In this document: positions 17,206 through 21,860 of the stretch, one piece after another
Layout of the letters: each line of letters opens with the position of its first letter
Position numbering within the stretch: the first letter of the stretch is position 1
NCBI GenBank assembly: GCA_035303785.1
Contig: DATGRI010000045.1
Location: forward strand, 1-35,752
Reading direction: 5' to 3'
Source: Sphingobacteriaceae bacterium
Lineage (GTDB): Bacteria > Bacillota > Sulfobacillia > Thermaerobacterales > RSA17
DNA length: 35,752 bases
Made by a program: the position numbers and the translations under genes
Notes under the pieces: model-generated
The model's input: only the letters and a program-made list of their open reading frames with translations
Told to the model about the DNA's origin: nothing
Databases searched by the model: none

Positions 17206-19692
17206 TCAGCCGATGACGATGTTGACCAGCCGGTCGGGCACCGTCACCACCCGGCGTACCTGCTTCCCGTCCAGCAGGTCCCGCACCCGCTGGCTGGCCA
17301 GGGCCGCCGCCTTCAATTCCTCTTCGCTGGCGCCGGCGGCCATCTGGATGCGATCCCGCACCCGCCCGTTCACCTGAACCACCACGGTAACGGTGCTGGC
17401 GGCCAGGGCGGAGGAGTCCGCCTCGGGCCACGGCTGCTGGTGGACGCTGCCGGCCTTGCCCAGCACCACGGACCACAATTCCTCGGCCAGGTGGGGCACA
17501 AAGGGCGCCAGCATCCGGACCAGGGCGTCCACCCCTTCGGCCATGACCTCCCGGGCAGCCCCCGGGCCGTGCTGCTCCTGCACCGCCGTCATCTCATTCA
17601 CCAGTTCCATCATGGCGCTGATGGCCGTGTTGAACTGGAAGCGGTCGTTGATGTCGTGGGTCACCTTGTGGATGGTCTGGTGCAGCTTGGTCCGCAGGCG
17701 ACCCCGGACCTCGTCGCCGGCGGGATCGTCACCCCCGGCATCCCTTTGGGCCCCTTGGAAATGGGTCGCCAGGCGCCACACCCGCTGCAGGAAGCGGGCG
17801 GCCCCTTCGATGCCGCTGTGCTGCCACTGGAAGTCCCGCTCCGGCGGCGCCGCGAACAAGATGTACAGCCGGGCGGCGTCGGCGCCGTACCGGTCCACCA
17901 TCTCCTCGATGGACACCACATTGCCCTTGGACTTGGACATCTTGGCCCCGTCCATCACCACCATGCCGTTGCAGAACAGGTTGGTGAAGGGCTCCGCCGC
18001 CGGGACGAGGCCCTCATCGTACAGCACCTTGGTGATGAAGCGGGAATACAGCAGGTGGAGCACCGCGTGCTCGATGCCGCCGATGTACTGGTCCACCGGC
18101 AGCCAGTACTTGACCTCCTGGAGGTCGAAGGGCCCCTCCTCGTACCGGGGCGAGCAGTACCGGTAGTAGTACCAGGAGGAATCCACAAAGGTGTCCATGG
18201 TGTCCGTTTCCCGCCGGGCCGGCCCGCCGCACCGGGGGCAGGAGGTGTTGACGAAGCCCTCGTGCCGGGCCAGGGGCGAGCCCCCCTCGCCCGTCAAGGC
18301 CACATCTTCGGGCAGCAGCACCGGCAGCTGATCTTCGGGCACGGGCACCGTGCCGCACTGGTCGCAGTAGACAATGGGAATGGGCGCCCCCCAGTACCGC
18401 TGGCGGGAAATGAGCCAGTCCCGCAGGCGGTAGCTGACGGTGCGCCGGCCCCAGCCCTGCTCCTCCAGGAAGTCGGCGATGCGCTCCCGGGCTTCGGGAC
18501 TGGGCAGGCTGGTGAAGGGCCCCGAGTTGATCAAGACGCCTTCGTCGGCGAAGGCCGTGCCGGTGCCGGCGGGATCCACCGTGCCCTCGGCATCGGTGAT
18601 GACGGTCCGCACCGGCAGGTCGTATTTCAGGGCAAAATCCAAGTCCCGCTGGTCGTGGGCCGGCACCGCCTGGATGGCGCCGGTGCCGTACTCCATCAAG
18701 ACGTAATCGGCGGCCCAGATGGGGATGCGCTCCCCCGTGGCGGGATTGACGGCATAGGCGCCGGTGAACACCCCTTGCTTGTCGCCTTCGGCCATCCGCT
18801 CCCGGTTGGTCATCCGGCCCACCCGGGCGATGAAGTCCTGGACGGCCGCCTCCTGGGGCGTGCCCCGGGCCAGTTCCATGGTCAGGGGATGCTCGGGCGC
18901 CAGCACCAGGAAGGTAGCGCCGTACAAAGTGTCGTGGCGGGTGGTGAAAACCCGGACGGAGCCGGTGCCGTCGGCCAGGGGGAATTCGATCTCGCACCCC
19001 TCGCTGCGGCCGATCCAGTTTTCCTGCATGACCCGCACCCGCTCGGGCCAGCCGGGCAGGTTCTTCAGGTCTTCCAGCAGGCGGTCGGCGTAAGCGGTGA
19101 TGCGGAAGAACCACTGCTCCAGCTCACGGGTCTCGACGGGCGTGTCGCAGCGCCAGCAGCGTCCGTCCTCCACCTGCTCGTTGGCCAGCACCGTTTCGCA
19201 GCGGGGGCACCAGTTGACGGGGGCCTTGCGCCGGTAGGCCAGCCCCTTCCGGTACAGGAGCAGGAAGAGCCACTGGCTCCAGTGATAATAGCCGGGATGG
19301 CTGCAGGCGATCTCCCGCCGCCAGTCGTAGGAGTAGCCCATGCGCTTCATCTGGTCCCGGATGATGTCGATGTTGTCGTAGGTCCACTTGGCGGGATGGA
19401 CGCCGTGGTTGATGGCGGCGTTTTCCGCCGGCATGCCGAACGAGTCCCATCCCATGGGGTGGAGCACCTGGTAGCCCGTCATGGTCTTGAAGCGGGCCAG
19501 CACGTCGCCGATGGTGTACACCCGGGTGTGGCCGATGTGGAGCGCCCCCGACGGGTACGGGTACATGGTCAGGCAGTAGAACTTAGGCCGGCCGGGATCC
19601 ATGTCTGTCTCGTAAATGCCGGACTCGGCCCAGCGGGCCTGCCAGCGGGCTTCGATGTCTTTGAAGTCGTAGCGGTCACCTGGCAGTGACAC
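17206..19692 (-). CDS. leuS: Leucyl-tRNA synthetase
   Basis: Class I synthetase charging tRNA-Leu with leucine. The 828-residue product shows the HIGH motif in YPYPSGALHIGH (residues 52-55). A zinc-finger-like pair of CxxC motifs (CPRCETVLANEQVEDGRCWRC) and the CP1 editing domain follow, then the KMSKS motif in MDGAKMSKSKGNVVS (about 583-587). The C-terminal anticodon-binding and Leu-specific domain ends with VTVVVQVNGRVRDRIQ. Start is GTG with GGAGGG seven bases upstream; an ATG between them is out of frame and opens only a seven-codon ORF. Expression is controlled by the T-box leader at 19714-20049 and the promoter inside rsfS. Identity is certain. Confidence 0.98.
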   Translation of the reverse strand: MSLPGDRYDFKDIEARWQARWAESGIYETDMDPGRPKFYCLTMYPYPSGALHIGHTRVYTIGDVLARFKTMTGYQVLHPMGWDSFGMPAENAAINHGVHPAKWTYDNIDIIRDQMKRMGYSYDWRREIACSHPGYYHWSQWLFLLLYRKGLAYRRKAPVNWCPRCETVLANEQVEDGRCWRCDTPVETRELEQWFFRITAYADRLLEDLKNLPGWPERVRVMQENWIGRSEGCEIEFPLADGTGSVRVFTTRHDTLYGATFLVLAPEHPLTMELARGTPQEAAVQDFIARVGRMTNRERMAEGDKQGVFTGAYAVNPATGERIPIWAADYVLMEYGTGAIQAVPAHDQRDLDFALKYDLPVRTVITDAEGTVDPAGTGTAFADEGVLINSGPFTSLPSPEARERIADFLEEQGWGRRTVSYRLRDWLISRQRYWGAPIPIVYCDQCGTVPVPEDQLPVLLPEDVALTGEGGSPLARHEGFVNTSCPRCGGPARRETDTMDTFVDSSWYYYRYCSPRYEEGPFDLQEVKYWLPVDQYIGGIEHAVLHLLYSRFITKVLYDEGLVPAAEPFTNLFCNGMVVMDGAKMSKSKGNVVSIEEMVDRYGADAARLYILFAAPPERDFQWQHSGIEGAARFLQRVWRLATHFQGAQRDAGGDDPAGDEVRGRLRTKLHQTIHKVTHDINDRFQFNTAISAMMELVNEMTAVQEQHGPGAAREVMAEGVDALVRMLAPFVPHLAEELWSVVLGKAGSVHQQPWPEADSSALAASTVTVVVQVNGRVRDRIQMAAGASEEELKAAALASQRVRDLLDGKQVRRVVTVPDRLVNIVIG

Positions 19693-19713
19693 CGGTCATC
19701 CCTCCATAACCCA

Positions 19714-19746
19714 GCAACCCCCCGTCCGGAAGGGACGGGGGGTTGC
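19714..19746 (-). terminator. Terminator-like stem of the leuS T-box
   Basis: A perfect 14-bp stem (GCAACCCCCCGTCC with GGACGGGGGGTTGC) and a five-base loop CTTCC, beginning directly after the T-box motif, where the competing terminator always lies. It is followed by TGGGTTATGG and not by a run of T. Termination may therefore be inefficient, or the switch may act on translation, since the leuS ribosome site lies about ten bases beyond the stem. Confidence 0.7.
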
Positions 19747-20049
19747 CCGCGGTACCACCCTACTTGGTCGCATCACAGTCTTGCCCATTGTGGAGCGGAC
19801 GGGACTTGAACCCGTGGCCTCGTGAATGCCATTCACGCGCTCTCCCAACTGAGCTACCGCCCCATGTGGAAAGTACGACCCACTTGCTGCCTTAACGCGG
19901 CCTGACGGAGACGGCTACTCGCGGCGCCTGCCTTTCGCCGTCCCACCTCCCGGGCGAGTTCCGCCGCTGTCGACACCGGCTTCCACCCGCCGGAACCAAT
20001 CGGTCCCGGCCCCGGCTCGCTGCCGCCGACGGTGCGGCGTACTGTTCCC
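19747..20049 (-). promoter_or_regulatory. T-box riboswitch (leucine specifier) of leuS, interrupted by tRNA-Ala
   Basis: Leader RNA that senses uncharged tRNA-Leu. Stem I has the 5' strand GGGAACAGTACGCCGC (20049-20034, with the conserved AGTA) paired to GCGGCGGAA, followed by the specifier CTC (19958-19956), a leucine codon matching leuS. Distal stem I shows AGCGAGCCGG and GGTGGAAGCCGG. A stem II with GACGGC/GCCGTC and its AGTA follows, then CCGCGTTAAGGC. The T-box sequence AGGGTGGTACCGCGG (19761-19747) exposes TGGT, matching an A73 discriminator base as in tRNA-Leu. Between these two parts, in the loop of a helix GGTCG (19880-19876) / CGACC (19770-19766) with inner CACA/TGTG pairs, lies a complete tRNA-Ala gene. 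The interruption is highly unusual. Confidence 0.88.
19791..19863 (-). tRNA. tRNA-Ala (anticodon GGC)
   Basis: All arms pair canonically. The acceptor GGGGCGG/CCGCTCC includes the G3-U70 alanine identity pair. D-arm GCTC/GAGC has loop AGTTGGGA, anticodon stem CGTGA/TCACG has loop ATGGCAT (anticodon GGC), and T-arm ACGGG/CCCGT has loop TTCAAGT. Discriminator is A73. The 3' CCA is not encoded (the next bases are CAA), so it must be added after processing. No promoter of its own is visible; it lies inside the leuS T-box leader on the same strand and would be transcribed from the promoter at 20103-20131. Confidence 0.97.
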
Positions 20050-20099
20050 GTTCATAGGCTGTTCTTTATGGGCAAAAGGTTTGGCCAAAACCAGCATCC

Positions 20100-20468
20100 T
20101 CAATTATAAGGAACCGGTTCACCAGCGTCAACCTCAAGGACTTCCGCGTCGCCCCACAGCCGTTCCAGGCCGTAGTAGTCCCGCTCTTCCTCGTGGAAGA
20201 CGTGGACGATGACATCGCCGTAGTCCAGCAGCACCCAGCGCCCTTCATTGTAGCCTTCCACCCTCAGGGGCCGCAAATCCGCTTCCTGCCGCATATAGTC
20301 CATGATGTGGTCGGCTATGGCCCGCACCTGCACGGGCGTGTTGCCGCTGCAGACGACAAAGTAATCGCTGACGGCGCTCAGGGCCCTCAAGTCCAGGATG
20401 ACCACCTTGCGGGCCTTGCGCTGGGCGGCGGCGGTCCCGGCCATCAGGGCCTGCTCTCGGGAATTCAC
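20100..20468 (-). CDS. rsfS: Ribosomal silencing factor RsfS
   Basis: Binds ribosomal protein L14 (uL14) and prevents subunit joining when nutrients are low. The 122-residue product contains the family core: KARKVVILDLRALSAVSDYFVVCSGN, VRAIADHIMD, VEGYNEGRWVLLDYGDVIVHVF and ERDYYGLERLWGDAEVL. Length is normal. Start is GTG, nine bases after the LCP gene, with only a distant G-rich site inside the upstream gene, so coupled translation is likely. An ATG at 20444 is an alternative. The nadD-(LCP)-rsfS-leuS order is common in clostridia. The 3' end carries the leuS promoter. Confidence 0.95.
   Translation of the reverse strand: MNSREQALMAGTAAAQRKARKVVILDLRALSAVSDYFVVCSGNTPVQVRAIADHIMDYMRQEADLRPLRVEGYNEGRWVLLDYGDVIVHVFHEEERDYYGLERLWGDAEVLEVDAGEPVPYN
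20103..20131 (-). promoter_or_regulatory. Sigma-A promoter of the leuS T-box leader and tRNA-Ala
   Basis: TTGACG (20131-20126), a 17-base spacer and a perfect TATAAT (20108-20103), located within the last codons of rsfS. Transcription would start near 20096, about 45 bases before stem I of the T-box. It is one of the best promoter matches in the window. Confidence 0.85.
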
Positions 20469-20477
20469 CTTGACGGG

Positions 20478-21860
20478 TCAGTCCCCCCTTTCGCCGGCCG
20501 GCATGACCAAGGCCGGCAGCTGGGCCCGGGTGGCGAAATCCCGGCCCAGGATGATCATGACGTCCACTTCTTCTTCCACTTCTTCTTCGTCCAAGTCCTG
20601 GCGGAAAAATTCCGCCGAGGGCACCAGCCGGGCCACGTGGCGGGCCAGCACCTGCAGGCCCACGTCGTCCCCGCCCTTGCGGCCGATGACCTGGGTCCGC
20701 TCAGCGGGCTCGCCCTGGGGCTCCAGCAGGACCACCTGGTAGCCCATGCGAGTCAAGGCTTCCTCCAGCCGGTCGGCCCCGCTGTTGTAGATGGCCACTT
20801 TGAGCCCGGCGTTGGCTTGGGGATCCACGCCCCAAACCACCTGGTCCATCACGTCGTCCAGTTCCTGCTCGTCCATCTGCCAGTAGCTGACACCGTTAAT
20901 GTAGGCCGGCTTGCCGGGCACCATGCCCGTGACCAGGCTGTCGCCGGTCAAATCGTCCTTCCGGGCGGCGGCCAGCCGCAGCAGGTCCAGGATCTCGCCG
21001 GTGGACAGGTCGGTGGTTACGCTGGCCGTCAGTTCCTCCACCAGGTCGGGCAGGCGGGTCAGCATGTTGAGCCGCAGCACCCGGTCCACCAGGGCCTTCA
21101 CGAACTGCTGCTGCCGCCGGATGCGGGGAATGTCCCCTTCTTCGTCGGTGCGGTAGCGCACGTAGTGGAGGGCCTGCTCGCCCTGCAAAGTGTGACGGCC
21201 CACCGGGATGTTGATGTACAGGTCCTGATACGGGTCCTCTTTCACCATGGGCTGCGCCACGTGGATCTCCACGCCGCCCAGCAAGTCGATGAGACGCTCG
21301 AACCCTTTGAAGTCCAGGCGGATGAACCGCTTCACCGGCACCGCAAAAACTTCCGAAACGGTGGCCATGGCCAGCATGGGCCCGCCGTAGGCGTGGACGT
21401 GGCCCATCTTGGTGGGATTCTCACGTACCGGGTTCCGCCCCCGCAGGGCCGTCAACTCGGTGATGGCCGCCTGGGGGATTTGAACGTGGGTGTCCCGGGG
21501 GATCCACAGGAGCCCCACATGCCCCGTCAGCTTGTCGATGGTCAGCAGCATGATCACGTCGGAGCGGCGCGCCCCTTCGGCCACCCGGCCGCCCCCTTCC
21601 ACCAGGCCTTCATCCACGCCCAGCACCAGTATGTGGAGGGGTTCGTCGGGCGACAAAGGCTCCCGGTTCACCGGCAATTGCTCGTCGGCATGGTGGGCGG
21701 CCTGCCGGCCCGCTTGAATCCCGGTGATGAGCCGGTAGGCCAGGGAGCCGCCGTAAATGCCCGTGGCCAGCAGCAGCAAGCCTGCCAAACCTACCAGCCA
21801 GACATATCGCCGCTTGATGCGGCGGCGCCGCCGGCCTCCGGCGGCCGCTTCCCCACCCAT
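20478..21860 (-). CDS. LCP (LytR-CpsA-Psr) family cell wall polymer transferase
   Basis: LCP enzymes transfer wall teichoic acid-like or other anionic polymers from a lipid carrier to peptidoglycan outside the membrane. The 460-residue product has a very basic N-terminus (GRRRRRIKRR) and a membrane anchor (about residues 20-42). The LCP domain (about 75-230) has the typical ARRSDVIMLLTID, LLWIPRDTHVQIP, FIRLDFKGFERLIDLLGGVEI and GEQALHYVRYRTDEEGDIPRIRRQQQFVKAL. A C-terminal LytR_C domain follows (from about 355, LKVAIYNSGADRLEEAL). An acidic patch DLDEEEVEEEVD lies near the end. ATG has GAGGG seven bases upstream. The position between nadD and rsfS is seen in other clostridia. The exact polymer is unknown. 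Confidence 0.93.
   Translation of the reverse strand: MGGEAAAGGRRRRRIKRRYVWLVGLAGLLLLATGIYGGSLAYRLITGIQAGRQAAHHADEQLPVNREPLSPDEPLHILVLGVDEGLVEGGGRVAEGARRSDVIMLLTIDKLTGHVGLLWIPRDTHVQIPQAAITELTALRGRNPVRENPTKMGHVHAYGGPMLAMATVSEVFAVPVKRFIRLDFKGFERLIDLLGGVEIHVAQPMVKEDPYQDLYINIPVGRHTLQGEQALHYVRYRTDEEGDIPRIRRQQQFVKALVDRVLRLNMLTRLPDLVEELTASVTTDLSTGEILDLLRLAAARKDDLTGDSLVTGMVPGKPAYINGVSYWQMDEQELDDVMDQVVWGVDPQANAGLKVAIYNSGADRLEEALTRMGYQVVLLEPQGEPAERTQVIGRKGGDDVGLQVLARHVARLVPSAEFFRQDLDEEEVEEEVDVMIILGRDFATRAQLPALVMPAGERGD

Follow-up and report, generated by a model that had tools for sequence, protein, structure and literature searches.

A T-box riboswitch and a tRNA-Ala(GGC) gene share the rsfS-leuS intergenic gap of approximately 400 nt, both on the minus strand. 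The gap belongs to a 35,752-nt stretch of DNA (the window), and the features of the locus are listed in Table 1. Analysis of the locus suggested that it is probably a leucine-specific T-box that carries a working tRNA-Ala(GGC) gene in place of its stem III loop, resulting in one bifunctional transcript. Stem I with its AGTA and CUC specifier, the tRNA, the T-box core, and the 14-bp hairpin are all found on one strand (minus), as the initial annotation had noted; its coordinates were correct but left out the promoter (20131-20103) and the 3' hairpin.

Table 1. Features of the leuS leader in the window, in the order of transcription
Feature	Position	Strand	Basis or remark
Promoter TTGACG-N17-TATAAT	20103..20131	(-)	overlaps end of rsfS; 11/12 consensus matches
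T-box stem I (bounds approximate)	19951..20064	(-)	RF00230 alignment
AGTA in stem I	20043-20040	(-)	direct reading
CTC leucine specifier in stem I	19958-19956	(-)	direct reading
Stem II / IIA-B region, AAGTG motif at its end before stem III (bounds approximate)	19881..19950	(-)	RF00230 alignment
Stem III 5' strand GGTCGTA	19874..19880	(-)	pairs with 19772-19766; covariation across nested loci
tRNA-Ala(GGC), G3-U70, A73	19791..19863	(-)	ARAGORN and Rfam
Stem III 3' strand TGCGACC	19766..19772	(-)	RF00230 alignment and covariation
Conserved AA after stem III	19765-19764	(-)	direct reading
T-box core GGGTGGTACCGCG (UGGU at 19757-19754)	19748..19760	(-)	RF00230 alignment and pattern
14-bp competitor hairpin GCAACCCCCCGTCC / GGACGGGGGGTTGC, without U-run	19714..19746	(-)	sequence
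GGAGG ahead of leuS	19705-19701	(-)	sequence
leuS, GTG start	17206..19692	(-)	ORF; tblastn homology to genes downstream of other nested T-boxes

A permissive Rfam scan of the window returned a single full-length RF00230 match (20064-19728, model positions 1-219, 80.4 bits, E 7.1e-18), and this alignment places the tRNA within a 98-nt insertion in the loop of stem III. One full-length RF00230 match also spans the tRNA in nearly all of the nested relatives scanned. In the window and in the relatives, both flanks thus align to one T-box and not to two RNAs, which was one of the doubts attached to the first description of the locus. A search for the pattern leading from the tRNA T-arm to the T-box core gave one match in the window and none in 100 shuffles. 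The RF00230 gathering score is 93; the window T-box lies below it, like all 11 T-boxes of the genome, and is missed when Rfam is scanned at the gathering threshold, which affects annotation. In the other ten T-box loci of the same genome, no tRNA was found by ARAGORN.

The leucine specifier CUC fits the downstream leuS, and a tRNA-Leu(GAG) gene is present in the genome. Across the nested loci, AACTC was found within stem I in 141 of 154, compared with 17.6 in shuffles. Because the specifier is CUC and the nested tRNA is an alanine tRNA, the latter cannot be the cognate cis ligand, a point on which the analysis agrees with the earlier reading, and a cis-ligand role was rejected on the mismatch of CUC with GGC. 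The nested tRNA might instead act in cis as a decoy, its encoded ACCA end pairing with the UGGU of the T-box and tuning antitermination, given that the T-box has the sequence UGGU and the tRNA ends in A73. However, CCA is encoded in just 112 of 154 nested loci and is absent from the window tRNA, in which A73 is followed by CAA, and the 3' end is not free in the nascent RNA. Since CCA is not always encoded, the decoy was rejected as exceedingly unlikely.

Comparison of the nested loci revealed that their flanks share the form GAGYG-helix-tRNA-helix-AA-NNAG-GGTGG; where relatives have an ordinary leuS T-box, the same GAGYG-stem III-AA frame holds a plain hairpin. In the window, stem III sits between the RRRNG and AA motifs (AAGTG-GGTCGTA ... 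TGCGACC-AA) and consists of 7 pairs, plus CACA/TGTG. When covariation was analyzed in 82 loci, in which only the motif was used to place the 5' strand, stem III pairing reached 86.8% of cells, compared with 62.3% when the 3' strands were swapped between loci (maximum of 66.7% in 500), and it fell to 22-48% when the strand was slid by 1-3 bases. A separate covariation run gave 5.54 of 7 pairs, compared with 4.21. Covariation of the flanks, together with the plain hairpin that ordinary relatives have there, places the tRNA in the loop of stem III, and the proposal that the helix around it stands where T-boxes ordinarily have a small hairpin held up. A single-sequence fold of the stem III-tRNA region was no more stable than shuffles (z -0.27). 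Stem III is described as an invariable part of the T-box linker in one report (PMC4919913), and the RRRNG-stem III-AA motif as taking part in aminoacylation sensing in another (PMC7778990). The nested loci indicate that stem III tolerates a full tRNA, with the gene for one RNA machine lying inside the folded structure of a second.

The nested pattern was present in 23 of 61 relatives, where controls gave no match (one of the 23, L038, is without a tRNA and is a chance match). It was also present in 85 of the 398 genomes of the phylum, where controls gave one match and one genome, G183, has one extra match to something other than tRNA-Ala. The pattern occurs as well in 31 of the 301 genomes of the Thermomicrobia/Chloroflexota-side phylum, and the GTDB collection has at least 120 stretches with it. 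Among the matches listed, leuS lies downstream in 167 of 176 tRNA-Ala(GGC) loci, most of the other nine having too little downstream sequence. The 85 non-redundant GTDB loci among the matches listed are distributed over Bacillota (40), Chloroflexota (27), Thermomicrobiota (8), and, in smaller numbers, six other phyla, with the phylum taken from GTDB record titles and single metagenome records of some phyla possibly misassigned. The nested species include culturable ones, such as Syntrophomonas wolfei and a Desulfofundulus. T-box elements do stand upstream of the tRNA in relatives, and the tRNA-Ala gene inside the leuS T-box, as first annotated, is both real in the window, with its one RF00230 match, and general, being found in many genomes. 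On the LeuS tree of class relatives, the nested state is clustered, with 9 changes compared with 17.2 when shuffled, which speaks for clustering but does not give the number of gains and losses. Three nested tRNA-Ala genes (L064, L108, and L136) were missed by ARAGORN. The few pattern matches with Asn, Gln, Pro, Arg, and Ser tRNAs have no leuS downstream and were taken as chance, and the remaining matches without a recognised tRNA appear to be coding DNA or to have arisen otherwise by chance. The source is a draft genome of 69 contigs, from which an assembly artefact or a chance adjacency could be suspected; yet many genomes show the arrangement independently, some of them near-complete and with very large contigs, and the scans gave zero or one control match, so that conservation refutes this explanation, which is almost certainly wrong.

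Although the pattern is not Ala-specific, no other tRNA-in-T-box pair and no T-box besides that of leuS was found among the matches listed. The specific pairing of only tRNA-Ala(GGC) with only leuS across several phyla, among these matches, goes beyond convenience and could reflect a coupled control, in which folding, charging, or processing of tRNA-Ala alters the leucine decision and leucine is sensed jointly with alanine or processing capacity. Apart from stem III, however, the analysis found no conserved contact linking the tRNA to the T-box, and the spacing varies widely on both sides, which makes such coupling unlikely.

ARAGORN and Rfam alike identified tRNA-Ala(GGC) at 19863-19791 (66.4 bits), with the cloverleaf, the GGC anticodon, G3-U70, and A73 all present. 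The alanine identity pair G3-U70 is conserved in 154 of 154 nested loci, as is A73, and a T precedes the tRNA at position -1 in 116 of 154. The nested gene is the sole Ala(GGC) gene found in the window genome, and a single copy is near-universal among nested genomes (71 of 72); in the listed genomes of the relatives and phylum scans, this copy is the nested one by its coordinates. Where a genome has a plain T-box or none at leuS, its Ala(GGC) gene is usually located at another place. Judged from its sequence, the nested tRNA-Ala looks functional and is probably needed, and its processing and charging are implied, since no other Ala(GGC) gene was found. The 42 tRNAs found in one genome (G000) do not include a tRNA-Ala(UGC), the Ala genes being one GGC and two CGC, perhaps owing to draft incompleteness.

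In the scanned region of the window (19680-20500), the only promoter-like site lies upstream of stem I and hence of both the T-box and the tRNA; an internal promoter between stem III and the tRNA, which could have given independent transcripts, was not found there. Of 154 non-redundant nested loci, 115 have a promoter-like site 150-320 nt ahead of the tRNA, a far higher count than in shuffles. The alternative of two independent overlapping units, a tRNA with its own promoter and a T-box that is a relic or separate, draws on promoter-like sites near the tRNA in some loci and on the loci without stem I. But such a site lies within 120 nt of the tRNA in only 12 of 154 nested loci, and the CUC specifier, stem III, and the T-box core are retained in most loci, so that independence of the two units is very unlikely. 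Stem I is lost from L173 and L213, with the tRNA-Ala kept and a promoter just upstream of it, and in L173 the T-box core is also mutated; by their sequences, these two loci read as decayed switches with the tRNA retained. In the Chloroflexota-side loci L241-L249, a promoter-like site made up of stem IIA/B sequence lies 34-49 nt upstream of the tRNA and may be a second promoter or a coincidence.

For the bifunctional transcript, we infer the following order of events. RNA polymerase would start at one strong promoter and pass through stem I, the linker, and the tRNA before it reaches the antiterminator/terminator. With the tRNA placed ahead of the antitermination decision, every transcript, terminated or not, would carry tRNA-Ala, whose supply would be independent of leucine and tied by the nesting to the leuS promoter, while transcription would extend into leuS only if the antiterminator is stabilised by uncharged tRNA-Leu(GAG). 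Excision of the tRNA by RNase P and a 3' nuclease (RNase Z) would sever the switch at the tip of stem III, a cut that is expected because the tRNA, as the only Ala(GGC) gene found, must be matured. The conserved stem III helix could still clamp both halves after the cut, and sensing would either finish before the cut or work on the cut RNA, both being compatible with the arrangement. More tentatively, the leader may possibly be a split riboswitch with tRNA maturation built in, where the T-box exists partly as two pieces held by stem III and processing sets the time window or the output of leucine sensing. Co-transcriptional folding, regulation, and tRNA processing would compete on one transcript, and the nested leader makes this competition testable.

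The window leader contains the T-box core and the 14-bp hairpin, and the hairpin is followed by UGGGUUAUGG, with no U-run (19714-19704); no terminator-like site was found at this leader (19680-20500 scanned). Unlike the leuS leader, the other ten T-boxes of the window genome have T-rich tails. The hairpins of the nearest relatives (L040-L045, high GC) likewise have no clear U-run, and termination at such leaders is therefore uncertain. The output of the window leader may be weak termination or control of translation.

In Escherichia coli, metY-nusA and thrU-tufB have a tRNA co-transcribed upstream of a translation-related gene, from which it must be processed out; the nested leader resembles them in this order of genes, whereas their tRNAs do not lie within a regulatory RNA structure. 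The thrS T-box leader of Bacillus subtilis is cut by a nuclease, with an effect on the downstream mRNA, and is similar in being a nuclease-cut T-box leader, but its cut is not tRNA maturation and frees no tRNA. In comparison to the leuS-type T-box (RF00230), the window leader has the same stem I with CUC, linker, RRRNG-stem III-AA motif (as given in PMC7778990), UGGU core, competing hairpin, and downstream leuS, and differs in that the tRNA gene of another amino acid fills the stem III loop and that the leader is expected to be cut when this tRNA matures. The part of the literature that was searched holds no account of a tRNA gene within a T-box, and an earlier mention elsewhere is possible. 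The T-box and the tRNA belong to known families; what appears to be new is that they are nested, that the nesting is conserved, and that maturation of the tRNA is thereby necessarily tied to the integrity of the riboswitch. The nesting is kept across Bacillota, Chloroflexota, and Thermomicrobia, and in a few records assigned to other phyla.

Several nested loci vary in their layout. In some of them, leuS is separated from the nested T-box by an extra gene, which is a putative branched-chain aminotransferase in L075, L094, and L130 and a putative AMP-binding ligase in L061, L136, L150, and L079, both identities being a reading of the sequences. The nested leaders of L101 and L226-L230 are compact; their stem I seems to run almost straight into stem III, with no stem II region in between.
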